Assembly: GCA_014730345.1 (NCBI GenBank)
Contig: WJIJ01000067.1
Coordinates: 1-49,423 of the forward strand
From: Candidatus Zixiibacteriota bacterium
GTDB taxonomy: Bacteria; Zixibacteria; MSB-5A5; UM-FILTER-46-8
DNA: 49,423 nt
Direction: 5' to 3'
Under the pieces are notes generated by a model that worked only from the letters and a program-made list of their open reading frames with translations, was not told the DNA's origin and did not search any database. How positions within the stretch are numbered: position 1 is the stretch's first letter; each line of letters starts with the position of its first letter. Below are positions 4,075-27,822 of this stretch, piece after piece. A program made the translations under genes and the position numbers.

Positions 4075-5703
4075 ATGGTAAAACGTGTGATGATAGTAGC
4101 CCTGAGTGTGATTATACTCGGAGGAGCACAGGTATTCGGCGCGTCGCCGGGTGACACCATCGGAACGACCTACTATGACCTTCAGAGTGAAAATTTAGCC
4201 GCGACCCGTATATGCGTAGATACATCCGGCGGAGTTCATTTCGCCTGGATCCATACCGCGGCGAGTTCATCCGGAGACCGTCATATTTATTACAATTTCA
4301 TTGATAACGGCGGATTTGTCTCGTGGTCATCGGGTACGCAGATAAGCACCAGCGCGGGAGCGGGGTTCCCTGACCTGGGGGTATTCCCGAACGGCACCGG
4401 CGCGGTGGTGTACCATAATACTAATAACAACAATTGCAATTTCGGAAAGGACAGCGGCCAGGGATTTGGTCTCTTTTCAATAATCGATATACCGGATGAG
4501 GTTCCTGGAGAAGCCACGGCGTATTGGCCAAAGGTTTCGCGGGATTCTTCAGGCACATGGCATGCGGTAGCGACGAGTTATGCCATGAGTACGGAATTGC
4601 CGTTTATTTATACTTATTCGACGAATGATGGAGCCAATTGGGCTTCGCCGGTTCTCGTGGATACGGTGGTAAATATGACCCCGTTCCCGGTTTCCTCGAG
4701 GGTCAGCACCAAGACGGCGATTGTCTGGGGGCGTCCGATCGATATTTCCAGCCCGGATTACTATGATTCGGACCTTTATTATGTGCAGTCGGCTGACGGC
4801 AGTACATGGGATTACAATACCAAGGTTAATGTAACCAATTACAGCGGGGCTGATACTCTGCGTGTATTTACAGATATCGATGCCGCATACGATTATAATG
4901 ACAACTTGCATATTGTATGGAGCGCGGTGGTTTATTACGCTGGAAGCGGAGACGCGATGAATGATTCATCGGCGTTGTTCCACTGGTCATCGGCGACCGG
5001 AATCGATACGATCGCGACGGCTTTCGAGAATAGCGCCCCTTCCCTTTATGATCTGAACATAGCGAAAGTTAATATCGGGGTGGATGTAAATAACAATCTC
5101 TTCGCGGTATGGACCCGATTTACCAATTCGGACAAATCCGCGGGAGGCTACTCGAACGGTGATATATATTATGCATATTCGACGGATGCCGGCAACACCT
5201 GGTCCACTCCGGAGAACCTGACCGACAGCCAGAGCGATGGTTGCACGGCCGGAAACTGTGACAGTGATCACTGGCCCGCGCTTGCGGAAACGGTCGACCA
5301 GTATCTGCATATTCTTTACATCCACGATACGGATGCCGGTTCAATTGTGCAGGGAGAAGGCAGTGAAGCGATAAGCCAGGTGATGTATTACAAGCATGAG
5401 AACCCGCTGTGGGTTGGAATTGATGATAAGCAACAACCCCGGGAATACGAGCTTACTCTTTCCAATTATCCGAATCCGTTTAATAGTGTTACTGTGTTTG
5501 AATTCCCGCCGGTGGAGGAAGGCGAGTTGACTGTTTACAACCTCCTCGGTGAGAAGGTAGCTGAAATAGAAGTGGCTAACAGTTCAAGGATAGAATGGGA
5601 CGGCCGGAATATCTCTGGCAGGGAGCTTGCCAGCGGCGTTTACTTCGCCAGGCTTCATGCGGGAGATAACACCTTGACCCGCAGGATATTAATGTTGAAG
5701 TAG
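4075..5703 (+). CDS. Secreted Asp-box (BNR, sialidase-like) protein with T9SS type A sorting domain
   Basis: The 542-residue product has a GGGAGG SD 6 nt before the ATG and a signal peptide ending near VFGAS (residue ~24). The body is rich in beta strands and carries Asp-box loops: STNDGANW near residue 182 (Asn in the usual Asp place) and STDAGNTW near 370. A motif GCTAGNCDSDHW near 390 is shared with three paralogs at 42293-48009. The tail opens with NYPNPFN near 464, continues with VYNLLGEKV and ASGVYF, and ends in basic RRILMLK, as expected for T9SS cargo that is cleaved and anchored at the surface. Asp boxes mark a beta-propeller fold, but I cannot find the arginine triad of true sialidases, so enzymatic activity is unproven. 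It is monocistronic, with a strong terminator 25 bp downstream. Confidence 0.93.
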   Translation: MVKRVMIVALSVIILGGAQVFGASPGDTIGTTYYDLQSENLAATRICVDTSGGVHFAWIHTAASSSGDRHIYYNFIDNGGFVSWSSGTQISTSAGAGFPDLGVFPNGTGAVVYHNTNNNNCNFGKDSGQGFGLFSIIDIPDEVPGEATAYWPKVSRDSSGTWHAVATSYAMSTELPFIYTYSTNDGANWASPVLVDTVVNMTPFPVSSRVSTKTAIVWGRPIDISSPDYYDSDLYYVQSADGSTWDYNTKVNVTNYSGADTLRVFTDIDAAYDYNDNLHIVWSAVVYYAGSGDAMNDSSALFHWSSATGIDTIATAFENSAPSLYDLNIAKVNIGVDVNNNLFAVWTRFTNSDKSAGGYSNGDIYYAYSTDAGNTWSTPENLTDSQSDGCTAGNCDSDHWPALAETVDQYLHILYIHDTDAGSIVQGEGSEAISQVMYYKHENPLWVGIDDKQQPREYELTLSNYPNPFNSVTVFEFPPVEEGELTVYNLLGEKVAEIEVANSSRIEWDGRNISGRELASGVYFARLHAGDNTLTRRILMLK

Positions 5704-5728
5704 AAATTTGTAGTTATATTTATGAACA

Positions 5729-5758
5729 GCCCGGGGTTTTAGCGCCCCGGGCTTTTTT
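5729..5758 (+). terminator. Rho-independent terminator after the 4075 gene
   Basis: GCCCGGGG (5729-5736) pairs perfectly with CCCCGGGC (5745-5752) across an 8-nt loop and is followed by six T residues (5753-5758). It isolates the 4075 gene from the operon at 6159. Confidence 0.92.
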
Positions 5759-6158
5759 ATTTGGATTTTTGGAACCCCGATTTTGTTAATTTTGTTTCTT
5801 TTATTGAGTGTGCGTATCGGTAAAACGCTCTAACGAACCTGGAATGTTAAGCCGATAAATAAAGTTGAAGCCTGCCGTAAACACTTTGTAAAGCCCATCC
5901 GAAAAACATATCCGGTTAGAAAGTAAGTTTGTTTTGTTGATAAGGTTAAAGAGGATAAAAGTCCGGAGAACAGCGAGGTTTTTGTAAAATAAAATATGTT
6001 AAAAAACCCTTGACTTTTGTTCGCCTTAAATCCATTATACCTTATTAATTGGGAAAGGATGGGAGTGAACAAAGCAGTAAAAAAGGTCTGCCGTATTAAA
6101 ATTGATAAAGTATCCGAAAATAAGATAATAATATAGAATCCTTCAAAGGAGGTTAGCC
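5759..6158. other. Leader/promoter region of the TonB receptor operon, no gene seen
   Basis: The stretch is AT-rich and has no credible coding region; an 80-codon minus-strand frame here lacks an SD and family features. A TTGACT (6010-6015) is followed by TATACC at 6036-6041 with a 20-bp spacer, longer than ideal, so it is only a weak promoter candidate. A strong SD (AAAGGAGG) lies just before the ATG at 6159. Confidence 0.35.
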
Positions 6159-9100
6159 ATGAGGGTCCCTATAGGGATTGAAGGAAAATTCGCCTCGTTG
6201 GTCGCAGTATTAATTGTTGTGCTCTTTACGGGAACAGCCTTGGCATCAACGACCGGACAGATAACCGGTACGGTAACTGATAGGCAGACAGGAGAACCTC
6301 TGCCTGGTGTAACTGTTCTTATAAAGGGAACAAGTATCGGCGCGGCGACCGATTTCGATGGTTTCTATCGAATTCAGAACGTAGCGCCGGGAACTTACGA
6401 ACTGGCGATTTCGCTGGTTGGATACGCGCCGACAACGGTCAGCGATGTTAAGGTAAGTATCGACAAGGTTACTACTGTGGATGTGAAGCTCATTTCTGAA
6501 GCAGTACAGTTTGAGGAAGTTAAGGTTGTGGCTAAGAGACCCCCGATCGAGAGCCGGGTGACATCAAATGAAGATGCCATAGGCGCTGATGAGATAGGGG
6601 TTATCCCGGTAAAGGATACCAAGGGAATTCTGGCCACGCAGGTAGGTTTTGTTAAACGCGGAACGCAGTTGCATGCCCGCGGTGGCCGTGCCGGCGAAGT
6701 AGTTTTCCGGGTTGACGGCGTTGATACCAATGACCCGCTTGGAGTTAATTCGCCTCGTACGGCGGATATACGAACAGGTGTCGGCAACGACGCGTCCGGA
6801 CGTGAATTCGCCAAAGCGGAATCACCTTTTTTAAGTATGGATGTGTCCTCCAATGATATTTCGGAGATATCCATCATTAAAGCGGGTTGGCCCGCGGAGT
6901 ACGGCAATTTGCAGTCGGGTTTGGTAAACCTTGCAACCAAAGAAGGTGACGCGAGATTTACCAGTGGATATCTTGAATACACCACGGATGATTTCGGCTC
7001 GCCGTCATTGAATAAGTATTCATTTAATTCCGACCGTTTTGACGCGTCGATTTCCGGACCGGTTCCGCTTGTTCAGGATGTTCTTTTCCCGAAACTGGGT
7101 CTCGAATTTCCGGGCGAGAGTTTCGCGTATTACGCATCATTCTCGGTTGATAAAACCGATACCTACACGGCATATTCGGATTTCGCGCCCAGCCAGCTGG
7201 ACACTTACTGGGGCCGGGAAGAACGGTTATGGGATGTTTTCCGCGTCGATTTTCCCATGCGTCAATCGAATTCTTATAAAACAAGCATTAAGCTGACTTA
7301 TAAGCTCGATGCCGCGCGGAAGGTAAACTTAAGTTATAAAAAAGATTGGAGCGAATATATAGATTGGGACTGGGATTGGCGTTATACTCCGCATACAGCT
7401 CCCCGGCAGGAGACCTGGTCTGAGTTGTGGCAGGTTTACTTTACCGATAAACCTGGTTGGATTAAGAATACATTCTATGAATTCCAGGTATCGAAGTATA
7501 CTATCGCCGCGACCCGTAAACCGGGTGGCAATGTACCCGGCGATTTCCTGTTTTTCGATGAATGGGAATTTTACGAGGATGAGAATAACAACGGTCAATG
7601 GGACGACGATGAGCCGTATATCGACAGCAACGGCAATGGCCAGTATGATTTCGGTGAACCCTTCACCGATCTAAATGGCAATGGCACCTGGGACTCCGCT
7701 GAGGAAATTACCCAGGACACAAACGGCAACGGCGAGTTCGATTATGAGAGACGCCGTGTTCAGCTTCCCGATGATCCCGAACCGTGGCAGGACGGAGATA
7801 TAAACCTTGGTGAACCGTTCCTGGATATGAACCAGAACGGTGTGTATGATGGTAACGATGTGGATATCTGGACCTCCGCCGATGACCTTAACGGCAATGG
7901 TAAATATGACGGGCCCAATGATGATTGGACACCTGGGATACCGTACCGTGATTTAAACAAAAACGGGGAATATGACGCTCCCGACGGATTCTACCAGTAT
8001 GGAGAACCGTTTGTCGACGAGAACGGCAACGGCAAGTGGGACGGCACAGACCTGTTTTTCGATTATGGCGGTTATGACGGCCGTGCTACTTACAGCCATC
8101 GGCGCTCGGATATCTATACTATAAAGCTGGACGTAACCAGTGCTCCGTCTGAACACCATGATTTGAAAACCGGTGTGGAATATAAATTCATTAAATTGCG
8201 TATGGCGGACCTTCGATATCCGTTCAGCCGCTATATCGGTCAATCACCTGATCCCAATGAGCCCTGGAATGACAGGGGATCGTTCCGTGATTTCTACTGG
8301 AGAACACCCAAGCAGGGCGCGTTTTATATTCAGGATAATATAAGTTACGGCGAGTTGTACATAAACCTCGGTTTCCGCTGGGATTATTTCTACCAGGCGC
8401 AGGAAGTTTTCAGTATATCTGACGAGGAAGCTCCCTATTACGCGATTGAGGATATTAAGGATACCCAGAACAAGTTTTCGCCGAGATTGGGCGTGTCTTA
8501 TCCGATTTCGGAGAAGGCCAAGGTTTACTTTAACTATGGTCACGCATACCAGTTGCCCGAGTATTATCGTTTCTACGCGCGGGCAACCCAGAACATCACT
8601 GCCGGCGGCGGTGGAGCGCGCGGTATTGTAGGAAACGTAAATCTTGACTTTGAGAAAACGGTTCAGTACGAATTGGGTGTCGAATACCTTATAGACAATG
8701 CCCATAAACTGAAAATCTCCGGTTTCTATAAAGACCAGTACGGTCTTATCAATGTTGTTGAGGGGCAGGGCGTGCTTGCGGCTGATAGATATACCAACCT
8801 CGACTATGCCCGTTCGAGGGGTTTTGAGCTCGAGTTAACCAAGTCTATAGCCGATTACCTGACCTGGGGAGCCAAGTATGAGTATTCCTGGGCATTCGGT
8901 AAATCATCTTCCGGAACCTCGGATTATTACCTGCGCTTTACCACCGGCCAGATTCCGCTTAAGGAATCCGCGCTGGATTGGGATATCCGTCACCAGGTTA
9001 ATATCGACGCTACCCTCAGTATAAGGAAGGACGATCACCCGGTAGTAGCAGGTATCAAACTTCCTGATGCCTGGGGCGCCAGCATAATCTGGCAGTTTAA

Positions 9101-9443
9101 CTCCGGTTATCCTTACTCGCCTTCCAGCCAGCATCCGGGTATTGTAGTAATAGGTAATGTTACTCCGCCCCAGAATACCGAAAGGCAGAAGCCTTACTCC
9201 AACGTTGACTTGCGCCTTTATAAGGATTTCGCGGTCAGCGGTCTGGATTTCACCTATAGTCTCTGGATTACGAATCTGTTTAACAAGAAGAACCAGTTCA
9301 GGGTCTATGGCGATACCGGCAGAGCGGATACTTCCCAGTTAACTTCCGATCGTCGAATCGTTACCGGAATTGATCATGATAAAGATCCCGCGAACTGGGG
9401 TCCGGGCAGGAATATTAAAATGGCTTTGGCTGTTAAGTTTTAA
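6159..9443 (+). CDS. SusC/CirA-like TonB-dependent receptor with an inserted array of calcium-type loops
   Basis: The 1094-residue outer-membrane protein has a strong SD and a signal peptide cut near TALAS (residue ~29). Residues ~33-115 form a carboxypeptidase-regulatory-like domain (GQITGTVTDRQTGEPLPGV, later DGFYRIQNVAPGTYEL), typical of SusC-type receptors. A plug domain follows (~118-260; QLHARGGRAGEVVFRVDGVD). The rest is beta-barrel and ends in the aromatic ALAVKF. Residues 474-631 are unusual: eight copies of D-x-N-x-N-G-x-[WYF], the calcium-loop pattern of thrombospondin type 3 and dockerin repeats, inserted in the barrel region, probably in an extracellular loop. The receptor would import a ligand using TonB energy; the ligand is unknown. 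It heads a four-gene operon, which argues for a dedicated surface complex rather than a siderophore receptor. Confidence 0.94.
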   Translation: MRVPIGIEGKFASLVAVLIVVLFTGTALASTTGQITGTVTDRQTGEPLPGVTVLIKGTSIGAATDFDGFYRIQNVAPGTYELAISLVGYAPTTVSDVKVSIDKVTTVDVKLISEAVQFEEVKVVAKRPPIESRVTSNEDAIGADEIGVIPVKDTKGILATQVGFVKRGTQLHARGGRAGEVVFRVDGVDTNDPLGVNSPRTADIRTGVGNDASGREFAKAESPFLSMDVSSNDISEISIIKAGWPAEYGNLQSGLVNLATKEGDARFTSGYLEYTTDDFGSPSLNKYSFNSDRFDASISGPVPLVQDVLFPKLGLEFPGESFAYYASFSVDKTDTYTAYSDFAPSQLDTYWGREERLWDVFRVDFPMRQSNSYKTSIKLTYKLDAARKVNLSYKKDWSEYIDWDWDWRYTPHTAPRQETWSELWQVYFTDKPGWIKNTFYEFQVSKYTIAATRKPGGNVPGDFLFFDEWEFYEDENNNGQWDDDEPYIDSNGNGQYDFGEPFTDLNGNGTWDSAEEITQDTNGNGEFDYERRRVQLPDDPEPWQDGDINLGEPFLDMNQNGVYDGNDVDIWTSADDLNGNGKYDGPNDDWTPGIPYRDLNKNGEYDAPDGFYQYGEPFVDENGNGKWDGTDLFFDYGGYDGRATYSHRRSDIYTIKLDVTSAPSEHHDLKTGVEYKFIKLRMADLRYPFSRYIGQSPDPNEPWNDRGSFRDFYWRTPKQGAFYIQDNISYGELYINLGFRWDYFYQAQEVFSISDEEAPYYAIEDIKDTQNKFSPRLGVSYPISEKAKVYFNYGHAYQLPEYYRFYARATQNITAGGGGARGIVGNVNLDFEKTVQYELGVEYLIDNAHKLKISGFYKDQYGLINVVEGQGVLAADRYTNLDYARSRGFELELTKSIADYLTWGAKYEYSWAFGKSSSGTSDYYLRFTTGQIPLKESALDWDIRHQVNIDATLSIRKDDHPVVAGIKLPDAWGASIIWQFNSGYPYSPSSQHPGIVVIGNVTPPQNTERQKPYSNVDLRLYKDFAVSGLDFTYSLWITNLFNKKNQFRVYGDTGRADTSQLTSDRRIVTGIDHDKDPANWGPGRNIKMALAVKF
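7578..8052 (+). repeat. Eight calcium-type D-x-N-x-N-G loops inside the TonB-dependent receptor
   Basis: Residues 474-631 of the receptor contain DENNNGQW, DSNGNGQY, DLNGNGTW, DTNGNGEF, DMNQNGVY, DLNGNGKY, DLNKNGEY and DENGNGKW, mixed with GEPF and GIPY phrases. The unit resembles thrombospondin type 3 or dockerin-like calcium-binding loops. It is a protein-level repeat; the DNA copies are diverged. Confidence 0.85.
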
Positions 9444-9446
9444 AAT

Positions 9447-9480
9447 GAGAGCCGAATACCGGCTCTCTTAACTAAGAGAG
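9447..9480 (+). promoter_or_regulatory. Two overlapping, mutually exclusive hairpins between receptor and partner gene
   Basis: GAGAGCCG (9447-9454) pairs with CGGCTCTC (9460-9467). CTCTCTTA (9463-9470) can instead pair with TAAGAGAG (9473-9480). The shared segment means only one can form. No U-run follows either, so this looks like an RNA stability, processing or attenuation element that could set the ratio of receptor to downstream products. Confidence 0.5.
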
Positions 9481-9499
9481 GTTTCAAGGGAGTTTTCTC

Positions 9500-12241
9500 A
9501 TGAACAAATTTAAGAGGATAAATTATAAATTCGGCTTCTTGGTTTTACCGTTTTTGCTTCTCGCGTTTATGATTATGACCTCTGACGGTCTTGGTAGAAC
9601 CATGCCTAAGAAGAAGGAATTCCGGCTGAACAAGCCGATGGTGGGAACGCCGAATGTAACTAACGCAACCCACCGGATTTCGAATATATGGTTTACCATT
9701 ACAAACTGGGGCTTTTTGGGGAGCGCCCAGTCCACAGATATTATCGATTGTGAAACAGGCGAAGTCGCCCCGTCATGCTGGTTCCCTGCGGGTTCGGACC
9801 TGGAATACCTTTTCCAGGGAGCAATCTGGGTGGGAGCTATAGTCGAAGGCGACACACTGGTTTCATGCGGTACTGACGGCTGGTGGGATACCCACGAGTA
9901 TTTTCCGGATGAATCCGGTGATTCCACCGGTGAGATCTGGTTAGGCTCTGTGCGGCCTTCAACGGCATATCCCCGCGTAACCGATAATAACTGTTATGAA
10001 TATCAGATACCGGAATCGCTCTCGATATCCGAGGAAGATTTCATAGCTTATTATACTGACACGAACACGGTTGTCGCCGAGGTAGATCCTATCGACGCGA
10101 GACCGTTGAGGCCCCTGGGTCTCCAGGTGGAGCAGAAGAGTTATTCCTGGTCTTATGAATACGCCGAGGATTTCATTCTTTTCGACTTCAAGTTGACCAA
10201 TATCGGGGAGAACGCGTTATCTGATATGTGGATGGCATTCCATATCGATGCTGACGTTCACCATACTTCCGTAGGTTCTCCGGGAGCGCAGGACGATATC
10301 ACCGGCTTTCTGGAGAAATCACAGCCAATCGAGGGTGTTGACAGTCTCGATATTAACACTGCGTACATTATGGACAACGATGGCGACCCTGGAGACGGCG
10401 ATGTTTGGGACAACCGATCAGTGCGCGGTTTGACCGGCACCCGTGTTGTACGTTTGCCCGAGGGCGTGGACAGCCTTGGTTTTAACTGGTGGATTTCGAA
10501 TGTGAATTCCCAGTTGGACTGGGGTCCGCAATGGCTTTCCAATTACATAGGACGTTTCCCGGGCGGTGGTTTAGGCACACCCGGCGGTGATGCTACGCGT
10601 TATTACATCCTTTCGAATTTCGAGTTTGACTATGACCAGGTTTTCGCGGCGATAGATTGGACGGCGGAAGATGATCCGCCGGGAGGAAAAACATGGTTGG
10701 CTCCTCTGGGTGAGGATCTGGCCACAGATTTAGCGAATGGGTATGATACCCGGTATACATATTCATTCGGGCCATTCCCGACTATCGACCCGGGCGATTC
10801 GGTTCTTCTAACGGTAGCTTATGTTGCCGGCGCGGATCTTCATGTCAATCCGCTTGATTACTCGGAAACACTCGAAAATAACGAAACTAACAGGACCGCG
10901 ATTGAATCATTTATAGGCAGGTTGGATTTCAGCGATTTCGCCTTGAACGCCACCTGGGCTGACTGGGTATATGACAACCCGGGAGTGGATACTGACGGCG
11001 ATGGCAACTTCGGTGATTGCGGTCAGTGGGAATTCGATGGAACAGGGGATTCTACCTGCGCATTGTGGGTGAAGGGCGATGGAGTACCTGATTTCAGCGG
11101 TCCTCCGCCTCCGCCTTCGCCGCGTCCGCTGAACTTCTCTACGGAAGTAAATTCTGTTACCCTTTCCTGGAATTCCACGGTATCCGAGTATACTGAGGAT
11201 ACTTTTGGTAATGGATTTGATTTCGAGGGTTATAATGTTTACAGGTCGAGGTCTCAAAGGCTCGATGAGTTTACCTTATTGGGATCTTACGACCGTATAG
11301 ACTATGACAGTTTCTATTATGACCCGTTAAGAGGCAGGATGGTTCTCGGTAAATCAAGGCCGCTGACTCTCAAGGAACTGAAGGAGAGATACGGAAGCAA
11401 AGTTACTTCCGGCCAGATAGGCCAGAACGTACCGTTCATTGTAGAGAACAAACCGCCTTATGAGCCGTTGCATTGCCCGATGGACCACGGATTCAAGGTA
11501 TACCGTCCCCATGGCAACAACACCGGGCTTTACGAGGACTATACAATAGTCAATAAGATACTCGATGGCGTTATCGGGCCAGACGGCGAGGTTATAGAAG
11601 CTGACACCACATGGTTGACGTTCGATTTTAAGAACGACGCGAACCATATATTTGACAGTACTGTGGTAAATGGCGATACATTGTCCGATGGTACGGCTGT
11701 TGACAAACATTACTACAGCTACAAGATTACCGGTTCGCTTTCCAGTATTCCTTATTACTATTCTGTAACTTCCCTGGATTATGGTGATCCCCGTACAAAG
11801 CTTGCTCCGCTGGAGAGTTCGAAGGGAATCAACATGACCTCGATTTACGCGATCAACGATTTCGAAAAGGTAGAGGCTAACCAGGTTTATGTCTATCCCA
11901 ACCCGTACATAGATGACGGCCGTTACCGGACGGAGGGCTGGGAGGATATTAACCAGGATCCCCAGTACTCCAAGAGGATATATTTTGCCAACTTGCCTCC
12001 GGGTGACGTTACAATCAGGATATTTACCTTAGATGGCGACCTTGTTGATAGAATAAACGTAACCTCGAATCCAGTGGATGATAATTCGCAAACCGAAAAC
12101 CAGCTTGTAGAGGTCGATCAACCGATCGTAAGCTGGGATCTAATCTCCCGAAACACGCAATCGATCGTATCCGGAATATACCTGTTCAGCGTAGAATCGG
12201 ATTTCGGGCGGCAGATTGGCAAATTCGTGGTTATTAAGTAG
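9500..12241 (+). CDS. Large secreted receptor-partner protein with FnIII-like segment and variant sorting domain
   Basis: The 913-residue product starts at an ATG 7 nt after GGGAG, 56 bp past the receptor gene. A hydrophobic segment at ~12-28 (FLVLPFLLLAFMIM) is a likely signal peptide. The N-terminal ~530 residues have no family I recognise; they are rich in Trp, Tyr and acidic residues and include phrases such as FNWWISNVNSQ. A proline linker (GPPPPPSPRPL, ~535) leads to a FnIII-like segment with NVYRSRS. The end (from ~796) has VYVYPNPYID instead of NYPNPFN, then RIFTLDGDLV, SGIYLFSV and the final KFVVIK. This is a divergent form of the T9SS C-terminal domain. In many FCB genomes such a protein follows a SusC-like receptor and precedes a PorV/PorQ gene; I infer it is the surface-exposed partner of the receptor. 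Biochemical role unknown. Confidence 0.88.
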   Translation: MNKFKRINYKFGFLVLPFLLLAFMIMTSDGLGRTMPKKKEFRLNKPMVGTPNVTNATHRISNIWFTITNWGFLGSAQSTDIIDCETGEVAPSCWFPAGSDLEYLFQGAIWVGAIVEGDTLVSCGTDGWWDTHEYFPDESGDSTGEIWLGSVRPSTAYPRVTDNNCYEYQIPESLSISEEDFIAYYTDTNTVVAEVDPIDARPLRPLGLQVEQKSYSWSYEYAEDFILFDFKLTNIGENALSDMWMAFHIDADVHHTSVGSPGAQDDITGFLEKSQPIEGVDSLDINTAYIMDNDGDPGDGDVWDNRSVRGLTGTRVVRLPEGVDSLGFNWWISNVNSQLDWGPQWLSNYIGRFPGGGLGTPGGDATRYYILSNFEFDYDQVFAAIDWTAEDDPPGGKTWLAPLGEDLATDLANGYDTRYTYSFGPFPTIDPGDSVLLTVAYVAGADLHVNPLDYSETLENNETNRTAIESFIGRLDFSDFALNATWADWVYDNPGVDTDGDGNFGDCGQWEFDGTGDSTCALWVKGDGVPDFSGPPPPPSPRPLNFSTEVNSVTLSWNSTVSEYTEDTFGNGFDFEGYNVYRSRSQRLDEFTLLGSYDRIDYDSFYYDPLRGRMVLGKSRPLTLKELKERYGSKVTSGQIGQNVPFIVENKPPYEPLHCPMDHGFKVYRPHGNNTGLYEDYTIVNKILDGVIGPDGEVIEADTTWLTFDFKNDANHIFDSTVVNGDTLSDGTAVDKHYYSYKITGSLSSIPYYYSVTSLDYGDPRTKLAPLESSKGINMTSIYAINDFEKVEANQVYVYPNPYIDDGRYRTEGWEDINQDPQYSKRIYFANLPPGDVTIRIFTLDGDLVDRINVTSNPVDDNSQTENQLVEVDQPIVSWDLISRNTQSIVSGIYLFSVESDFGRQIGKFVVIK

Positions 12242-12282
12242 TTGGGATGAATATAATGTTTAAAGATAATAAGGAGAAAATT

Positions 12283-13236
12283 ATGAGACAGGCAGCGGTA
12301 ATAGCCATCGCCGTGCTTCTTCTCCCAACGCTTGCGTTCGGGCAGGCCAAGGTGGGAACCGCCGGCGCTCAATTTCTGGAGATTGGCGTATCCGCGCGCG
12401 GCATGGCTCTGGGAAACGCGATAGTGGCAAATGTAGACGATGCGTCGGCGGTTTATTATAATCCGGCTGCCATCGGCGAGTTTGACAGATATAAAGCGAT
12501 GTTTACCCACATATCTTATGTAGCGGATATAAACTACGAATTTGCCGCTTTGACCATGCCGGTCAATGCCTTAATGGGCAATGTAGGGATAGCGTTTTAC
12601 ATGTTGTCCACTGATGACATGCCGGTAACGTCCTTTAAGAATCCTACCGGAGCAGGCGCGCCGACATTCCAGGCAAAGGATTACGCGTTAGCGTTTACTT
12701 ATGCCGCGCCATGGACGGAGCATTTCAGCCTGGGGGTTACTGTAAAGTATATCGCCGAGCTGTATCATGATTACAAGGCGGAAGGCTGGGCGGCTGATGT
12801 GGGGACTTATTACAACACCGGATTCCGTAATCTGCGGATATGCATGTTGTTATCGAACTTCGGTCCGGATTTAAAATTTATTGAGGAAAAATATCCATTA
12901 CCCCAGGATTTCAAATTCGGCGTATCCATAGATGTGCTCCAGGGACCAACCCACAGGTTGATATTCCTGGGACAGATGGCCCACCCAAATGATAATCTCG
13001 AAAAGTACGCGACCGGTTTCGAGTACTGGTTTAACGACTTCGTGGCCCTCAGAGTAGGAAGAAATTATAATGTCGATTATGTATCGTCCAATGATTTCAT
13101 GAAATTTGAGGGTATGTCTTTTGGCGCCGGGTTGAAGATGGATGTTTCTAATTTCACCATGGGAGTCGATTATGGTTACCAGGATTTTGGTTTCCTGGAC
13201 GACACCCATAGGTTCTCGTTGAGCTTGGAATTTTAA
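12283..13236 (+). CDS. PorV/PorQ-family outer-membrane beta-barrel protein
   Basis: I start the gene at 12283, not at the in-frame ATG at 12247, because AAGGAG lies 6 nt before it and the resulting 317-residue protein begins directly with a clean signal peptide (MRQAAVIAIAVLLLPTLAFG, cleaved before QAKVG). The mature N-terminus reads AGAQFLEIGVSARGMALGNA followed by DDASAVYYNPAAI, the hallmark of the PorV/PorQ (UPF0164, FadL-like) family. The remainder alternates strands and ends in FSLSLEF, an aromatic barrel terminus. In Bacteroidota, PorV carries cargo bearing T9SS C-terminal domains from the translocon to the attachment complex. Members encoded next to TonB receptors, as here, are more likely dedicated paralogs; which role this one has cannot be told from sequence. 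It lies 41 bp after the 913-residue gene, in the same operon. Confidence 0.92.
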   Translation: MRQAAVIAIAVLLLPTLAFGQAKVGTAGAQFLEIGVSARGMALGNAIVANVDDASAVYYNPAAIGEFDRYKAMFTHISYVADINYEFAALTMPVNALMGNVGIAFYMLSTDDMPVTSFKNPTGAGAPTFQAKDYALAFTYAAPWTEHFSLGVTVKYIAELYHDYKAEGWAADVGTYYNTGFRNLRICMLLSNFGPDLKFIEEKYPLPQDFKFGVSIDVLQGPTHRLIFLGQMAHPNDNLEKYATGFEYWFNDFVALRVGRNYNVDYVSSNDFMKFEGMSFGAGLKMDVSNFTMGVDYGYQDFGFLDDTHRFSLSLEF

Positions 13237-13260
13237 TAGGTTTACCGGAGGTCAAACACA

Positions 13261-15039
13261 ATGCACATAAAGAAAAAGCTCTGGGCTTTACCATTTATCA
13301 TAGTAACAACCGCGCTTGTGATGATAGGGTGTTCGGAGTTGGAATTAAGCGGTACGGCGCCGGATAATATAAGGCCGGAAGTTACCTTTTCCAACGTGCC
13401 AAACGATTCATCGTATTATTCTTCCAACCCGGAGGTAAACTGGTTCGGAAACGATGTAGACGGGCAGATTATTCAGTATCATTACAAAGTGATATTGAAG
13501 GACAGCCTTGCGGTTGCTTTGCAGGAATTCCTGGGTTCGTTCAGCACTCCGGATTCGTCCTGGATATCCGTGGAAACGGAATCAGACACTGTGGCGCTGT
13601 ATGCTTCACCGGAACCGGATGAGTACCTCGAGCAGTACATATTCCTCTGCGCCGAGGATGATGACGGCGCGTATTCCGATTTAGCTTACAAACTTTTCGC
13701 CAGGAACAACCATGCTCCCGACACCCACATCGAGGTAATTGAATCGGATACTATAGCCGGTTATGTATATTACAGTTATCCGTACTTAACCGATTATTAC
13801 GATGGCTTAAGACTGCAGTGGGAAGGTTCGGACTCCCTGGACTTCCCCGACGAACAGCCCGATTTCGAATTCCATTGGACATTGTATGGTCCCTTTGATG
13901 ATGAGCCATATATCGGTTTGGATTCATCGACATTCGATACGACAATGATCTATACGGCTTACGATTCGACATCGAACCAGACAGTAACCTGGGAGTCCTA
14001 TGATTCCACAAATCTCGATGTCTGGGTAGATGACGAGGATGTAACCCTCTATAATTTGCGTACCGGTTATTATGTGTTCCGGGTATTATCCAAGGATGAC
14101 GCTGAAGTGGTCGACCAAACCCCGCTGGATACGCTGACGGGTGAATACGAGTCGATTAAAATAATCCGGTTCGTGGAGCCTTTCTGGGTTACCGGTGAGG
14201 ATGCCGAGGAACTTCTGGTACTCGACTTTTCAAGGTACCGCAACTTCCCCGGTGAAAACGAAGAAGAAGATTCAAATTACGTGTTTTACAGGAAGGTGAT
14301 ACAATCGGCGGGAATCGACACATTGACCGAGGTACGCTGGGTACATAACGACAGTTCGGCAACGGTGGAACGGGCGACGTTGATTGAGCACCCGTTGATA
14401 CTGGTGCTGAATGACGACTGGTTCGAGCCAATACCTCAAAATATAAGTATATGGTTCCAAAAGTATCTTGGAGTCGGCGGGCAGATGATGGTAACAGGCC
14501 GTTACTGTTTCCGTGTCGGCGCCCGTACAAACTACATGGATTCCTTGTATTATGGTGAGGCTGGAGTTGGAACCGGTGTTGTAGCCGGCAATAACCAGCA
14601 GGGCTACCTCGCGCGCGACTATTTCAACCTCTACTATAGTATATTCCCCGGCTGGAACTTCCAGAATAATCTCAACCATGAGATGACCGGGGCTACCAGT
14701 GTTTACAGCGGATTACCCAATGTAAGTTTCGACACCACTAAGGTTCAGCAGGTTGTGGGGACGTTCTATACGGTGAACACCAATTACCTGCCGGCGGTGG
14801 AGAAATTGGTAAGGAATGCGGAGTCGCAGACTCTCTACGAGTTTAAATCGTTCCAACCGGAGTTTTCCGACTTCGATGGCTTCCCGGTGGCGAATTATTA
14901 CGCGCCGCGGATAATGATTGGCGAGAATATGCGTACCGCGTTCAAGACATCGTACTTTGCTTTCCCTCTTTATTATGCGGAGGAAAGCCAGGCGATAGAT
15001 GTTCTCACAACGATGTTTGGCATATACGGAATACAATAG
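13261..15039 (+). CDS. Lipoprotein with Ig-like N-terminus and GATase-like C-terminal domain
   Basis: The 592-residue product has a GGAGG SD and lies 24 bp after the PorV-like gene. The start MHIKKKLW, a hydrophobic stretch and MIGC with Cys24 form a lipobox, so it is probably lipid-anchored to the outer membrane; Ser follows the Cys. Residues ~35-150 look like Ig/FnIII strands (EVNWFGNDVDGQIIQYHYKV). Residues ~317-410 read as a Rossmann/GATase1-like unit (LLVLDFSRY, a FYRKVIQSAG helix, LILVLNDDWF, WFQKYLGVGGQMMVTGR), similar in pattern to ThuA-like and DUF4350-like domains, but I see no Cys-His catalytic pair. It is the last gene of the 6159 operon and is followed at once by a terminator. 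By analogy with SusC/SusD pairs it may be the substrate-binding or structural lipoprotein of the receptor; that is inference. Confidence 0.88.
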   Translation: MHIKKKLWALPFIIVTTALVMIGCSELELSGTAPDNIRPEVTFSNVPNDSSYYSSNPEVNWFGNDVDGQIIQYHYKVILKDSLAVALQEFLGSFSTPDSSWISVETESDTVALYASPEPDEYLEQYIFLCAEDDDGAYSDLAYKLFARNNHAPDTHIEVIESDTIAGYVYYSYPYLTDYYDGLRLQWEGSDSLDFPDEQPDFEFHWTLYGPFDDEPYIGLDSSTFDTTMIYTAYDSTSNQTVTWESYDSTNLDVWVDDEDVTLYNLRTGYYVFRVLSKDDAEVVDQTPLDTLTGEYESIKIIRFVEPFWVTGEDAEELLVLDFSRYRNFPGENEEEDSNYVFYRKVIQSAGIDTLTEVRWVHNDSSATVERATLIEHPLILVLNDDWFEPIPQNISIWFQKYLGVGGQMMVTGRYCFRVGARTNYMDSLYYGEAGVGTGVVAGNNQQGYLARDYFNLYYSIFPGWNFQNNLNHEMTGATSVYSGLPNVSFDTTKVQQVVGTFYTVNTNYLPAVEKLVRNAESQTLYEFKSFQPEFSDFDGFPVANYYAPRIMIGENMRTAFKTSYFAFPLYYAEESQAIDVLTTMFGIYGIQ

Positions 15040-15065
15040 CGATATAGCGCAAACGCTTTTAACAA

Positions 15066-15092
15066 GGGATCGGCCCGGCCGGTCCCTTTTTT
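15066..15092 (+). terminator. Rho-independent terminator of the 6159-15039 operon
   Basis: GGGATCGGC (15066-15074) pairs with GCCGGTCCC (15078-15086), including one T-G wobble, across a 3-nt loop, followed by six T (15087-15092). It overlaps the stop of the convergent gene ending at 15091. Read leftward it lacks a good U-tract, so it serves mainly the plus strand. Confidence 0.82.
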
Positions 15093-17385
15093 AATGGCGC
15101 TGTTTGATATTTCTTATGATTTCGAGATTTTCCAAAGCGGGGGCGAAAGCGGAATCGATCTGCAATGCCTTGTTGAAAAGGGATTCCGCCCTGTCGAGAT
15201 TCCCGGATTTGGCATTAACCAGGGCGAGATTATAAACGGCAATTATATTCGTGGGTTCGATACCGACGGCGCGGCTGAGGTATTCAACGGCGTTGGTATA
15301 ATCCTTTTTAAAATCGTAAATGAGCCCGGCGTTTATATAAGCCTGGGTGAATAATGAATCCCTTTTTACCACCTCATTCAATAAATCAAGAGCTGTATCG
15401 AAGTTTTTCCTGTCTATCTCAATAGCGGCTAAATTATACATAGCCATTGTCCGGGTTTTTTCGGGCGCCGAGGAATAGGGCAGGTCTTCAGAATATATCT
15501 TCCCAAGGTTATAGTCGGAAACGAGGTTTTTACTATCGCTCTCGATAATCTGCCGGTAGTAAAATCCGGCAGAATCCGTACGGCCGGTTTGCTGGAAGAT
15601 TTTACCAAGGGCGAGTTGAATATTTATGTCATCGGGAAACTGCCGGCAGTATCTCCGGGCGTGCTGGAGAGCGGCGGTTGTGTCTCCGCGGTTCATGTAT
15701 ATCTGGACGATATTCAATGCCGCGGGTACCATGTTTGGTTTTACTATCATGGATTTTTCAGCGTAATCCAGGGCTTGGTCGTGATTCCCACGCAGTAATT
15801 CAATGGTGGAAAGATTAAGATACGCCCGCGCTTCGCCGGGATGGAATTTCAGCTCCCTTTTATAATAGAATACCGCGCTGTCATAATCGCCATTGTAAAA
15901 ATGAATATTTCCGAGGTTAAGGTTGGCCTGGGCCACCTCGCTATCGTTTCCGGCCGCGTCATGGTAGTATTCCCGGGCATCCTCCCAATTGCCGCCTCGG
16001 AGATAAATATTCCCGAGGTTGTAGTAAGCCTGGGCATAGTTGTCTTTATCGATACCGGTGAAGTTTGTTATAGAAATAACGAATGCTAAAATCCCCAGCG
16101 CGATAGCGATTATTAATTTTGCCGGGAAATTCCGGCTTTCAATTCCGGAATATATTTTATAGAGACCATACCCGGCAAAGATGGACAAATAGGGGATAAA
16201 AGGCAGGCGGAAACGTGAGGTTACAAAAAAGAGTATCATGGTCAGCCAAAGGGACACTGTAATCATCCACAGCAAGAGGGTGTTTTTATCCCTAAAACCG
16301 GTAATAATGTTGCCGATTACCGCGAGCCCGAGTATAAAAGCGAAGGGGATAAAAGAAACCCGGGAAATGGACGCGAATCTTTTCGAGAAATAGAGATTCT
16401 GGTTGTTTGAGATTTCGAAATTGTTTATTGACAGATAAGCTTTTTTGAGGGCTAAGCCAACTGCATCGATGGGATTTACCGCCCAATAAGATAAGCCTTT
16501 AGAATAATAAAAGCTCGAAACTTCCGATGGTTTCATATCCTGCCTGCCGGTTTCTTTCTCGGCGAGGTATTCGCAGTCCTCATATTCCCAGCTTGCCCCG
16601 AATTCGGGCATGTTGGCGGTCATACCATCGGCGGCTTTATTGTTGCCGATATAGAAGTTTATTCCTCCCTGCGATGCTATCAGCACCGTGTCGTTGCCAA
16701 GGAAGTAATTAACGGCGGTTACAGGCAGAATCGGGATCACTGAAACAGCTATGAATACAACGGTTTTGGGTATGTTTTTGGTTTTGAAATAGACAAAGAT
16801 TATGACGGGTACACAAAATAAAAGGATGTTCGCGCGGGTAACGGCCGCTAAGCCGAGGGCGAATCCAGCTATTGCAATGGTAAAGATTTTAGAATTATCC
16901 TCAACGCCCCGCAAAATCAAATAAACGGCTACAATAGTGAAAAAGGAGAAGAGGGTGTCCACTAAGAGCTTTCCCTCGAAATACAATGGCGGGAAATAGA
17001 GGATATACAATAAGCTCGCGATGATCGCGGCGGTCAGGTTAAAATAGCGGTATGAAATGGCAAAAATAAAAACTACTATGGCTATTCCGAGTAGATGCCC
17101 GGCGAGGGACGCGATGAAAAGATTAATATCAAAAATGATATATATAATCCCGAGGAAAAATGGATATGCCGGCGCCCGGAAGAACGGGCCGTTGATAACC
17201 AACTCCCTGTTAGCGATATCAACTGCCAAAAGGTGGTGGTAGAGGGCGTCGATGCTGGGATTATAGAAAAACGGACTGTTTGAAGATGATTGCACCAGGT
17301 AAACAATCCGAATTATCAGCGCGGCCGCCGTTAAACCCGTCGCCCAGATGATATGGGGTTTTAAAAAATGCTCGCGTATTCCCAT
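15091..17385 (-). CDS. GT39/ArnT-like polytopic glycosyltransferase fused to C-terminal TPRs
   Basis: The 764-residue protein has ~10 predicted membrane helices in its first ~445 residues, starting with WATGLTAAALIIRIVYLV. The first outer loop carries NPSIDALYHH, matching the catalytic Asp loop of the PMT/ArnT (GT39, GT83) fold, and GPFFRAPAYPFFLG follows as in this family. Residues ~448-755 contain about eight TPRs (for example AYYNLGNIYLRGGNWEDA and AYINAGLIYDFKKDYTNA). Such enzymes move sugars from polyprenyl-phosphate carriers to acceptors on the outer side of the inner membrane. The membrane-PMT-plus-TPR order recalls eukaryotic TMTC O-mannosyltransferases. Acceptor unknown; a gene cluster of exported proteins makes protein glycosylation plausible. 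The start has no SD, but a canonical promoter places transcription start at or next to the ATG, so translation is probably leaderless. Confidence 0.9.
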   Translation of the reverse strand: MGIREHFLKPHIIWATGLTAAALIIRIVYLVQSSSNSPFFYNPSIDALYHHLLAVDIANRELVINGPFFRAPAYPFFLGIIYIIFDINLFIASLAGHLLGIAIVVFIFAISYRYFNLTAAIIASLLYILYFPPLYFEGKLLVDTLFSFFTIVAVYLILRGVEDNSKIFTIAIAGFALGLAAVTRANILLFCVPVIIFVYFKTKNIPKTVVFIAVSVIPILPVTAVNYFLGNDTVLIASQGGINFYIGNNKAADGMTANMPEFGASWEYEDCEYLAEKETGRQDMKPSEVSSFYYSKGLSYWAVNPIDAVGLALKKAYLSINNFEISNNQNLYFSKRFASISRVSFIPFAFILGLAVIGNIITGFRDKNTLLLWMITVSLWLTMILFFVTSRFRLPFIPYLSIFAGYGLYKIYSGIESRNFPAKLIIAIALGILAFVISITNFTGIDKDNYAQAYYNLGNIYLRGGNWEDAREYYHDAAGNDSEVAQANLNLGNIHFYNGDYDSAVFYYKRELKFHPGEARAYLNLSTIELLRGNHDQALDYAEKSMIVKPNMVPAALNIVQIYMNRGDTTAALQHARRYCRQFPDDINIQLALGKIFQQTGRTDSAGFYYRQIIESDSKNLVSDYNLGKIYSEDLPYSSAPEKTRTMAMYNLAAIEIDRKNFDTALDLLNEVVKRDSLFTQAYINAGLIYDFKKDYTNAVEYLSRAVGIEPTNIIAVYNLALVNAKSGNLDRAESLFNKALQIDSAFAPALENLEIIRNIKQRH

Positions 17386-23773: not shown

Positions 23774-24504
23774 TTAAAACCTGCCTTTCTCGAAAAATCA
23801 TACGGCTATTTATAAACCAGTTTGATTTTGGTTTCTAATACCACCCAGCCCTTAGTAGTCCAAAGCAGAAAAAAGCTATAATGATTATCGTTGTTCCAGC
23901 CCGAAGCAGATCAAAGCAGGTATTTATTCCTGGTGCGATTCCAAATCGCTTTAAACGACACACTTCTTAAGTAGCAAAGTGCTATCAAGCTGTAAAATAA
24001 TAATATATTCGAAAAAAGCAAGCATTATTATTTCTGGGAAGCAACTTGGGGTTTGGATTTTGCACCTGCTTTTACTATTTGTGAAAACGGTTTCATATTT
24101 TGAAAATGAAACCGAAGCAAGGAATTTGAATTTATTCATTCCTTTTGGAAAGGCCCGGTTTAAGTTGCTGGGGCAGTATAAAAACGGCTAAAAACAGGCT
24201 AAAAATGGGATTTCAAATTTACAAACATAATAAACTTCAAAACCGGCATTTCCTTTGCGTTTCAAGGGGTTTGAAAAGATATGGAAAACCCAATTAAATC
24301 TTGACAAATAGGGGAATTATATTATTTTATTATATCTGGATAGTAGGAAGATGTGTTCTCATCAATTACATATGATCCGGAATTAAAGCAAGCGTAAATT
24401 AGTGTTGCGTTTGCTAAGTTTTTGAAACTAATCGAGTAATGCAACTGTTACAATTACGGTAAGGAAAACAGGTCATTTTATTTAATTCTATCATGGAGGT
24501 TATA
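23774..24504. other. Long divergent intergenic region (about 730 bp), no gene seen
   Basis: The region separates the minus-strand beta-helix gene from the plus-strand protease genes. Two overlapping frames of 62 and 70 codons near 23951-24191 have no SD or recognisable features. A small hairpin GCGATT-CCA-AATCGC lies at 23935-23949. On the minus strand TTGGAC, 17 bp, TATTAG is a weak promoter candidate for the beta-helix gene. The plus-strand promoter at 24301 is listed separately; its ~165-nt leader includes a weak stem (GCAAGCG with CGTTTGC), but I recognise no riboswitch class. Confidence 0.5.
24301..24328 (+). promoter_or_regulatory. Probable sigma70 promoter of the tandem S8 protease genes
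   Basis: A perfect TTGACA (24301-24306) is followed after 16 bp by TATTTT (24323-24328) in a very AT-rich stretch with other possible -10 registers. Transcription would start near 24335, giving a leader of about 170 nt before the ATG at 24505. Confidence 0.5.
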
Positions 24505-27500
24505 ATGTACTTATCTTTGCGCAAGACAACTATCATTCTGCTTGGTCTTTTATTCGCGTTTTCGGCAAGCGCCGTCTATGCCGAAGTTTTAACCAGCGCG
24601 GAAGGCTATCAGTACTTCTCGGACAGGATGATTGTTTGCACCACCAAAGATTCTCCAAAACTGAACACCGGTGAATTGGCTACGGCTGGTTTCACTACCG
24701 GTGTACAATCAATCGATAATCTCTGCGCTCAATATGGCGTAGAACGCGTTGAACCCTATTATAAAGGCAAGCTGAAAAGAGCGGTGCATCTGAAAGAGCT
24801 GATGTCCCGTACTTATGTTTTCTTTATAAATGAGACGAAAAGTGTTCACGAAGCGCGGGTGGCATTCAGCGCGGATACCAATGTTGAACACACCGATTTA
24901 TGGGATATCCCGGTTCCTTTTTACACACCCAACGATCCACGGTTAAACCAGCAGTGGTTCCTGGGCCAGATCAACGCTTATGATGCGTGGGATATAATCC
25001 GCGGCCAGCAATCAGAATTCGGGATTATTGGTATAAGTGATACAGGCGTTTATTATGAACATCCCGATCTCGAGCCCAATATGTGGATCAACGGTCCTGA
25101 GGACATTAATGGTAACGGTACTTATGAACCGTACGATGAAAGCAGCGGGGGCGACTGGAACTACGAGGATGACGATGATAACGGTTATGAAGATGACGTA
25201 GTTGGTTTTGACTTCGGCTGGGGCGACCCGGATCCGAAAGAAGACAGTCCCACTCATGGAACACATGTTGCGGGATGCGCTTCGGAAGCTACCGATAATG
25301 ACGAAGGCGGTGCCGGAATAGGTTTCTCCGGAAAGATAATCGCGGCTAAGGGAGCTCGCAACGGCCAGTTGACCGCGGTTTATGCCGCGATAATTTACTC
25401 GGCAGAGAATGGAGCCCACGTTTGTAACTGCAGTTGGGGCAGTAACTATTACAGCAATACCAACCAGCAGATTATCCGCAACTCTTTCCTCGATGGATGT
25501 CTGGTTATAGCGGCGGCCGGTAACGACGGCGTTTCCACCAGGCACTATCCGGCGGCTTACGACAGCTGTCTTTCAGTGGCGGCTACCACCAGGAACGATG
25601 TCAGGGCAAGTTTCACCAACTATGGTGACTGGGTTGACATCTCCGCCCCGGGCGTGGACATATATTCAACCTGGGCTACCGGTTCTTACCAGTCCCTGCA
25701 GGGAACCTCGATGGCTTCCCCGGTGGTATCCGGCGTAGCCAGCCTGGTTATTTCGCAGAATCACCTGCGCACTCCTCAGCAGATATGGGATATCTTGAAA
25801 TCTTCCGCCGACAGTCTTTCGCTTTATAACGCCAATCCGAATTATATCGGTCAGCTTGGAACCGGGCGTGTAGACGCTTACGCGGCTCTGGCGGCGGGTA
25901 CCATGCCCAATATCCAGTACGTCGAAATGGATATCAGCATCCTTAACGACGACGGCGATGGGATCCTGAACCCGGGCGAAAATATTGAAATGGTAATTAC
26001 ACTCCAGAACATCTGGGCGGACGCTACCAATGTACAGGGTACATTAACCGGTCCGAGCTATATGACCGTAACTGACGGCGAAGCTACTTTTGGCAACATC
26101 CCCAGCGGGGGAGAGGCCGATAACTCAGCCGACCCGTTTGATGTCGAAATCGCCCTGGATGCTCCGGTCGAAATCGCGGATATGAATCTGCATATTACCG
26201 CTGAGGGCGATTACGAAGTCGATTTGACCATACCGCTGGAAATCGCGTTGAACCAGTTGAATTTCCCGATGAGTGTTGACGGAAATATCGAAGGAAGCTT
26301 TGGCTTTGATGACTTCGATGGCAACGGGGTTGAAGAAATCGTCTTCGGAACCTCCGATGACGAAGTACATATTATTGATTCCGATGGCACCGAATTACCG
26401 GGTTGGCCGGTTGTTGTGGACGGCGATGTAGTTGGTGGAGTAGCCATTGGGCAGGTTGATTATGCCGGTACCAGGGACGTGGTTGTTGCCACCAAGACCG
26501 GTAATATTTATGCTATTAACTCTTTGGGAAGCGTTTTCCAGGGATTCCCTGTAAACGCCGGCCAGAGTTATTACAGCACTCCGACGCTCGCCGACATAAA
26601 TGGTGACAACACCCACGAGATAATCTGTACGGCTTTCGGCGACGGTAAGCTTTACGTGTTGAAGTCCGATGGAAGCGACCTGGACGGATTCCCGGTAGAA
26701 ACCGGCAACCGTTTTTATGGAAGTGCGGCGGTTGGTGATATAGACAACGACGGCAGTCCGGAAATCATTGCCGGCGTTCTTGATGGAAACCTGCAGGCAT
26801 GGAACCATGATGGTACTGTAGTATCTGGTTTCCCTGTAAATCTGCAGGACGCTATCTGGGTAGCCCCGGCGCTTGGCGATATCGATAACGACGGCGACCT
26901 GGAAATCGCGATTGGCACCCAGGGAGGCAATCTTTACGCGGTCCATCACGACGGTTCGATAGTAAGCGGATTCCCGGCGGCTCTCAGCGGCACCATTAAA
27001 TCGGATCCTTCTGTTGCCCAGGTTGTTGGCGATGACGGCCTTGAAATTTTCGTAGGCACTAACGACCATTTCCTTTATGGCGTCAAGGGCGACGGTAGTA
27101 TTATGACCGGATTCCCTGTCGATTGTAACAACTCGATAACCTCTTCTCCTTCGATTGCCGATCTCGACGGTGACGGTGAGAACGAGGTGTTCGTTTCCGC
27201 TACCGACGGCGTTATTTACGGTTTCAATCCTGACGGTTCCGCGGTGAGGAATTTCCCGGTTCCGACATACGGTACGCTCACCAATTCCTCGGTTGCTATC
27301 GGTAATTTCGATGGCGATGGCGACCTTGAACTGGCAGTAGGATTACGCCAGAGCTTTGACAACGTATTCGTTGTCGATTACAAGGAAACAGCATCGTTCT
27401 CGGGATCTGACTGGCGTATGTTCGGGCATGATATAACCCGCACCCATCGCTGGCATGAATGGCAGACGGATATCGACGATGAAGGTCCCGACGCCCTGCC

Positions 27501-27780
27501 TAAGGCGTTCGAACTTTCCCAGAACTATCCCAATCCGTTCAACCCCTCAACCAAGATAATGTACAGCCTGCCTTCGGACTCCAAGGTTAAGATGGTTGTT
27601 TACAACCTGATGGGTAGAGAAGTGGCTACCCTGGTTGATAAGCACCAGAAGGCCGGCAGTCATGAGGTGGCCTGGGATGGCAGAAACGCGGGCGGTCAGA
27701 AAGTAGCCAGCGGAATTTACTTCTATAAGCTGGATACAGATGACCAATCAGCAGTGAAGAAAATGCTTCTGATGAAGTAA
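24505..27780 (+). CDS. Secreted subtilisin-like (S8) protease with FG-GAP repeats and T9SS sorting domain, copy 1
   Basis: The ATG at 24505 (1091 residues) has GGAGG 5 nt upstream and begins a signal peptide (MYLSLRKTTIILLGLLFAFS); an ATG four codons earlier overlaps that SD and is less likely. Residues ~30-145 resemble an I9-like propeptide. The S8 domain carries the triad Asp179 (GISDTGV), His251 (THGTHVAG) and Ser402 (QGTSMASP). A calcium-type loop DINGNGTY and an acidic DDDDNGYEDD lie between Asp and His. From ~590, after an Ig-like segment (NPGENIEMVITL), come six or more FG-GAP/VCBS units of the form GDIDNDGSPEIIAG plus NHDGTVVSGFPV, predicted to form a calcium-rich beta-propeller. The tail has QNYPNPFNPS, VYNLMGREVA and KKMLLMK. 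Intact triad, so probably an active extracellular endopeptidase. Tandem paralog of the gene at 27891. Confidence 0.94.
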   Translation: MYLSLRKTTIILLGLLFAFSASAVYAEVLTSAEGYQYFSDRMIVCTTKDSPKLNTGELATAGFTTGVQSIDNLCAQYGVERVEPYYKGKLKRAVHLKELMSRTYVFFINETKSVHEARVAFSADTNVEHTDLWDIPVPFYTPNDPRLNQQWFLGQINAYDAWDIIRGQQSEFGIIGISDTGVYYEHPDLEPNMWINGPEDINGNGTYEPYDESSGGDWNYEDDDDNGYEDDVVGFDFGWGDPDPKEDSPTHGTHVAGCASEATDNDEGGAGIGFSGKIIAAKGARNGQLTAVYAAIIYSAENGAHVCNCSWGSNYYSNTNQQIIRNSFLDGCLVIAAAGNDGVSTRHYPAAYDSCLSVAATTRNDVRASFTNYGDWVDISAPGVDIYSTWATGSYQSLQGTSMASPVVSGVASLVISQNHLRTPQQIWDILKSSADSLSLYNANPNYIGQLGTGRVDAYAALAAGTMPNIQYVEMDISILNDDGDGILNPGENIEMVITLQNIWADATNVQGTLTGPSYMTVTDGEATFGNIPSGGEADNSADPFDVEIALDAPVEIADMNLHITAEGDYEVDLTIPLEIALNQLNFPMSVDGNIEGSFGFDDFDGNGVEEIVFGTSDDEVHIIDSDGTELPGWPVVVDGDVVGGVAIGQVDYAGTRDVVVATKTGNIYAINSLGSVFQGFPVNAGQSYYSTPTLADINGDNTHEIICTAFGDGKLYVLKSDGSDLDGFPVETGNRFYGSAAVGDIDNDGSPEIIAGVLDGNLQAWNHDGTVVSGFPVNLQDAIWVAPALGDIDNDGDLEIAIGTQGGNLYAVHHDGSIVSGFPAALSGTIKSDPSVAQVVGDDGLEIFVGTNDHFLYGVKGDGSIMTGFPVDCNNSITSSPSIADLDGDGENEVFVSATDGVIYGFNPDGSAVRNFPVPTYGTLTNSSVAIGNFDGDGDLELAVGLRQSFDNVFVVDYKETASFSGSDWRMFGHDITRTHRWHEWQTDIDDEGPDALPKAFELSQNYPNPFNPSTKIMYSLPSDSKVKMVVYNLMGREVATLVDKHQKAGSHEVAWDGRNAGGQKVASGIYFYKLDTDDQSAVKKMLLMK

Positions 27781-27801
27781 TTCTAATATAATGTTGCACT
27801 T

Positions 27802-27822
27802 CCCCCGGCATTGCGCCGGGGG
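27802..27822 (+). other. Intercistronic GC hairpin between the two S8 protease genes
   Basis: CCCCCGGC (27802-27809) pairs perfectly with GCCGGGGG (27815-27822) across ATTGC. The bases after it (ATATGCTC) give no U-tract, so it is a poor intrinsic terminator; partial termination or 3'-end protection of the upstream message is more likely. Confidence 0.6.

Follow-up and report, generated by a model that had tools for sequence, protein, structure and literature searches.

The PorZ-PorQ and PorU-PorV subcomplexes of the type IX secretion system (T9SS) are consistent with a 1:1 ratio (PMC5562754), and the C-terminal domain (CTD) of PorZ is uncleaved (PMC8545088). Type B CTDs have cognate PorP/SprF barrels encoded downstream (PMC12618676, PMC9143113). 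The FadL-family barrel BamG and the surface lipoprotein BamH are conserved in most FCB phyla (PMC12611786, PMC12578637). Here, we describe a four-gene module of Zixibacteria that encodes a TonB-dependent receptor (TBDR), a 913-residue protein with a variant CTD (P913), a PorV/PorQ-family barrel (PORV), and a lipoprotein (LIPO). The parts are ordinary, but their combination is unusual and strongly conserved. The module works most like the PorZ-PorQ or SprB-SprF pairs (PMC5562754, PMC12618676, PMC9143113), joined to a TonB receptor complex.

Organization of the locus

The window, of 49,423 nucleotides, makes up an entire contig in a 3.58-Mb genome of 204 contigs, assigned to Candidatus Zixiibacteriota bacterium. 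The module and its flanks contain the following features:

4075–5703, + strand: P542, a separate unit upstream, with a standard type A CTD (TIGR04183, 39 bits)
6102–6129, + strand: candidate promoter TTGATA-16-GATAAT, a consensus match only (10/12)
6159–9443, + strand: TBDR, 1094 aa, with an N-terminal CarboxypepD_reg domain and a TonB-receptor barrel
7578–8033, + strand: loop array of the form D-x-[DNS]-x-[DNS]-G, located in the barrel region of TBDR and predicted to bind Ca2+
9500–12241, + strand: P913, 913 aa, a predicted exported protein with a body of no assigned family and a variant T9SS CTD
11870–12238, + strand: variant C-terminal sorting domain of P913, with the motif VYPNPY, an insert of ~20 residues, and the ending QIGKFVVIK
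12283–13236, + strand: PORV, 317 aa from the ATG at 12283, a PorV/PorQ-family outer-membrane barrel
13261–15039, + strand: LIPO, 592 aa, a lipoprotein with a Cys24 lipobox
15064–15088, + strand: intrinsic terminator-like hairpin with a G+C-rich, 11-pair stem and a T-rich tail
15091–17385, − strand: PMT/TPR glycosyltransferase-like gene (Pfam PMT_2 and TPR), convergent and outside the unit

The four genes are co-oriented and separated by gaps of 56, 41, and 24 bp, as the first-pass annotation had described. The longest open reading frame of PORV spans 12247–13236; the 41-bp gap between P913 and PORV is nevertheless correct, since AAGGAG precedes the ATG at 12283, where the signal peptide begins. 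The terminator that the genes were said to share was found as the hairpin and T run at 15064–15088, and a second terminator-like hairpin at 5728–5753 closes P542, the gene upstream of TBDR. Bounded by these hairpins, the region 6159–15092 fits a single transcription unit. The ribosome-binding site AAAGGAGG lies ahead of the TBDR start codon. Elsewhere in the window, at 24493–33177, three large open reading frames (1095, 1091, and 632 aa) stand in a row on the + strand and carry standard T9SS tails.

TonB-dependent receptor

TBDR is a TonB-dependent receptor by its match to PF00593 (108.6 bits), which, like that to PF13715 (76.9 bits), is over the Pfam cut-off; the plug domain is matched weakly, at 14.6 bits. 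The earlier label "SusC-like" does not hold, as TBDR scores 75.7 bits against the SusC model TIGR04056 with its cut-off of 368, and a Pfam/NCBIfam search of the four module proteins gave no SusD-type match, LIPO included. What the module and SusCD loci have in common is an operon that pairs putative surface partners with a TonB receptor whose N terminus holds a CarboxypepD_reg domain. However, its class is not that of a SusCD-type uptake locus: besides the receptor score and the missing SusD partner, its large outer protein bears a T9SS tail in place of a lipid anchor, and the locus is core and mostly single-copy.

The TBDR sequence contains nine D-x-[DNS]-x-[DNS]-G motifs, compared with 0.4 in shuffled sequences. 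The predicted calcium-binding array is kept in every sampled module TBDR, with 5–14 motifs each, whereas receptors of the second module type, described below, have one. The conserved D-x-N-x-N-G loops suggest that the outer loops of the receptor are calcium-dependent.

P913 and its variant C-terminal domain

P913 has a hydrophobic N terminus, as read from the sequence, and no family match in Pfam/NCBIfam; in the P913 alignment, the one Pfam model matched is that of the T9SS tail, by two of 25 members. The motif VYPNPY is located at about residues 798–803. It is present in 39 of 47 aligned P913 tails, and its counterpart NYPNPF in 53 of 60 standard tails. Measured from immediately ahead of the motif to the C terminus, P913 tails usually have 107–124 residues and standard ones 84–97. 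The profiles of the two tail types are homologous (hhalign 99.3%). The proposal that a non-standard CTD is encoded beside a PorV-family barrel is supported.

Variant tails match the NCBIfam PorZ model in 14 of 21 cases (best E 1.6e-7), the type A model in 15 of 21 (best 1.3e-5), and PorU in 12 of 21 (best 1.4e-5). The variant CTD also matches the solved structure of PorU, 6za2 (E=0.0015). At the level of sequence, the P913 tail is no less similar to the tails of PorZ and PorU than to those of ordinary cargo. P913 scores 17.2 bits against the type A cargo model TIGR04183, below the cut-off of 23 bits; its N terminus and CTD kinship, together with SprA in the genome, make it a predicted T9SS cargo in the wide sense. 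P913 is not PorZ, a protein of two β-propellers and a CTD, as the match is confined to the CTD, there is no whole-protein match to NF052228 (cut-off 260), and a PorZ candidate is encoded on contig C56.

In the four genomes of the window family, scores of 83–150 bits against the tail profile are reached by P913 and a relative of the second module type, and the next match has 41 bits. The variant tail is thereby found in only two kinds of protein in these genomes, each beside a TBDR and a PORV-family gene. A short protein at L068:373-1947 combines a P913 body with a standard T9SS tail, which suggests that the two tail types are interchangeable. Another such short protein, at L069:3892-5493, is disrupted by a frame change or stop.

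The structures of P913 and LIPO were predicted from alignments that drew on sequences of the window and related loci. The AlphaFold2 model of P913, from nine sequences, has a pLDDT of 53. Foldseek matches of this low-confidence model are mostly β-supersandwich proteins, including GH116, sugar phosphorylases, and the YidC periplasmic domain. With whole-chain TM scores of about 0.2, a β-supersandwich fold of the P913 body is possible, as a lead only. Such a body would fit glycan binding by P913, if the weak model is right.

PORV, LIPO, and the T9SS of the source genome

The identification of a PorV relative in the module is well founded: PORV scores 201 bits against the PorV/PorQ family model NF033709 (cut-off 90), and its profile matches the solved PorV structure 6h3i (E=1.4e-22). 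Its scores are below the equivalog cut-offs for both PorQ (NF033711, 118.8 versus 220 bits) and PorV (NF033710, 66.6 versus 250 bits).

The source genome encodes the SprA translocon and PorU, both over cut-off, and dozens of standard T9SS tails. PorU is positioned directly 5' of PorV. The PorV candidate is this C37 protein adjoining PorU (193.7 bits to NF033710), and the PorQ candidate is a paralogue on C36 (185.6 bits to NF033711). A PorV2 candidate is located on C90, and the full-length PorZ candidate on C56 scores 203 bits (NF052228). All four candidates are under the curated equivalog cut-offs. Since they are separate genes elsewhere in the genome, and those on C37 and C36 score higher, PORV is neither the PorV nor the PorQ of this genome but an additional paralogue, one of about ten in the PorV family. 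The likely canonical PorV on C37 (L025:3529-6144) is 871 aa long; its family match is split, with a weak PorZ-like match in between, as if ~500 residues had been inserted.

LIPO has no family match in Pfam/NCBIfam. Its assignment as a lipoprotein stands, as the lipobox residue Cys24 is invariant in 34 aligned orthologues. A surface-export signal was sought, and at least two acidic residues follow the cysteine in 14 of 47 LIPO sequences. The structure model of LIPO has a pLDDT of 36, too low for use.

Conservation across Zixibacteria

We surveyed 133 Zixibacteria genomes, the same number for the phylum as for the class. P913 relatives are present in all 133, and one scan of genome contigs, among named genomes, found them only in Zixibacteria MAGs. 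PORV has a single dominant orthologue (E up to 1e-50) in 114 of the 133 genomes, nearly always once, and LIPO has an orthologue in 122. Of the 110 genomes that contain both genes, 107 have them side by side in the same orientation; in the three exceptions, the matches listed fall on different contigs. Of the sampled loci, 43 extend more than 1.4 kb beyond PORV on its upstream side, and 42 of these have TBDR there. At the remaining locus, L132, a 675-aa open reading frame takes the place of the receptor, and no receptor match was found there. The arrangement, kept across the phylum, is more than chance. The conservation of gene order, proposed for FCB genomes at large, is borne out within Zixibacteria, the range surveyed.

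The order TBDR-P913-PORV-LIPO is present in all four genomes of the window family and in loci of families f3, f4, f5, f15, f16, f17, and f19. P913 lies between TBDR and PORV in f1, f3, f4, f5, f16, f17, and f19 and at one f15 locus of the two sampled; it immediately precedes PORV in loci of f14 and f13, whose sequence ends or breaks off at that point. In total, about ten families have P913 inside the operon. P913 is absent from the operon in f6, f7, f8, and f9, in the one sampled locus each of f11 and f12, and at the other f15 locus; PORV therefore needs no adjacent partner. The families f6–f9 have several P913 paralogues per single PORV. The earlier claim that PORV is tied to one partner holds in so far as a variant-CTD partner is adjacent in about ten families, and fails for f6–f9, where P913 left the operon and multiplied elsewhere.

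The f6–f9 loci form one group on the PORV tree (SH-aLRT 88). The sampled P913 paralogues of f6, f7, and f9, commonly arranged in tandem, likewise group together (SH-aLRT 94). From these trees, the exit and multiplication most likely occurred once in the f6–f9 lineage, with further separate losses elsewhere. Tandem arrays of P913 paralogues are found at L087, L089, L091, L095, and L096, all in f6, f7, or f9. Next to the L089 array (f6) are paired M16 peptidase genes and one that encodes a vWA/CarboxypepD_reg protein.

The surroundings of the module are also partly preserved. Several families keep P542 as a neighbor, in the same position at L066, L072, L073, L077, L083, L088, L134, and L136. The convergent PMT/TPR gene is in the same place in many families. 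A lipoate-protein-ligase-like gene is located upstream of the receptor at L093:13409-14215 and L113:3114-3944, and in many families this position is occupied by a gene of comparable size with a similar N-terminal sequence. Together with the downstream PMT/TPR gene, the lipoate-ligase-like gene shows that the module occupies a conserved position on the chromosome.

A second module type contains a P913 relative beside another TBDR-PORV pair and lipoproteins. It is found at L019:1-10644 (C89 of the source genome) and L071 (G003:C1), and comprises a P913-like protein, a standard CTD protein, a lipoprotein, TBDR, and PORV, in a different order. The C89 module adds a second lipoprotein with NHL-type repeats; L071 is cut off at this point. 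Among the paralogues sampled, the C89-type PORV is closest to the window PORV, and the two group together (SH-aLRT 90).

Proposed mechanism and alternatives

We propose, at slightly better than an even chance, that P913 is exported by the T9SS and stays uncleaved on a dedicated PorV/PorQ-family barrel, encoded by the next gene, in a phylum-wide outer-membrane complex around the TonB receptor. All four proteins would be exported by Sec; TBDR and PORV would be inserted as barrels, and LIPO would be lipidated. By analogy with known homologues, the variant CTD may direct P913 across the outer membrane through SprA, and PORV may then capture this CTD and keep it uncleaved. The model for this capture is Porphyromonas, in which PorQ holds PorZ and PorV holds PorU. 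P913 and LIPO would constitute the outer part of the complex, assembled next to TBDR, and TBDR would presumably import a ligand. The gene identities and order, the variant CTD with its kinship to PorZ and PorU, and the presence of SprA and PorU are direct results on which the proposal draws. Against it speak the loci in which PORV has no P913 beside it, the several P913 paralogues per single PORV in f6–f9, and the match of the variant CTD to type A, by which the canonical PorV could deal with P913.

The module resembles the PorQ-PorZ and PorV-PorU pairs in combining a T9SS protein that has a PorZ/PorU-type tail with a PorV/PorQ-family barrel. It differs in that the P913 body matches neither the PorZ nor the PorU body, in that PORV is under both equivalog cut-offs while better PorV, PorQ, and PorZ candidates are encoded elsewhere, and in that the operon adds a TonB receptor and a lipoprotein. 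As in the type B pairs SprB-SprF and PG1035-PorP, a variant CTD gene is directly followed by a gene of a FadL-type barrel; however, the module CTD is a relative of type A and PorZ, and its barrel belongs to the PorV/PorQ family, not PorP.

It is conceivable, although we consider it unlikely, that PORV is a transient shuttle that takes P913 over from SprA, and that PorU then cleaves P913, which is attached to lipopolysaccharide or set free. The receptor would in that case be a regulatory neighbor and not a physical partner. Known PorV and SprF shuttles act in this way (PMC5562754, PMC12618676), and the many P913 paralogues per PORV in f6–f9 are in line with it. The type A match of the variant CTD is a further point for it. 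Against a shuttle, the fit of the variant CTD to PorZ and PorU tails is no worse than that to type A, and the adjacency of TBDR and PORV persists where P913 has left, which makes their link independent of P913.

Less probable still is that the linkage reflects a conserved chromosome position, with the outer-membrane location as the only thing that the proteins of the module have in common, and no joint complex. Neighbors of no obvious relation, the lipoate ligase and the convergent PMT/TPR gene, also stay in place in many families; however, they vary, or have larger gaps or the opposite orientation, whereas TBDR, PORV, and LIPO remain close and co-oriented.

The least probable reading is that PORV and LIPO form a BamG/BamH-like outer-membrane biogenesis pair that aids the assembly of complex outer-membrane proteins, TBDR and P913 being its clients or accessories: like that pair they are a FadL-type barrel and a lipoprotein found phylum-wide, PORV-LIPO is mostly single-copy, and PORV just reaches the FadL model Toluene_X (29.7 bits), but profile searches of solved structures do not support it, as the PORV profile fits PorV and no BamG at E up to 1 in a library that includes the BtBAM outer-membrane chain taken to be BamG, the same chain is weakly matched by another FadL-like protein (C198, E=0.014), and the LIPO profile has no match to BamH at E up to 1, with the BamH entry in the library not separately confirmed. 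This C198 protein (L027:3420-4862, 480 aa) matches 9hiv_F, from the Bacteroides BAM structures, and is a possible BamG of Zixibacteria.

Implications

Conservation of the locus extends through an uncultured phylum, and the literature searched describes no such system in it; the search found no paper that joins Zixibacteria with "type IX secretion". If the proposed complex of P913, PORV, LIPO, and TBDR exists, T9SS surface display and TonB-dependent import, both hallmarks of the FCB group, would be joined in one dedicated complex. The rule of a variant CTD with a cognate barrel would then extend from PorP/SprF to the PorV/PorQ family, and one of the extra PorV-family paralogues of the source genome would have a use. 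The module would also offer a concrete test of whether the type of CTD decides which barrel holds a surface protein.
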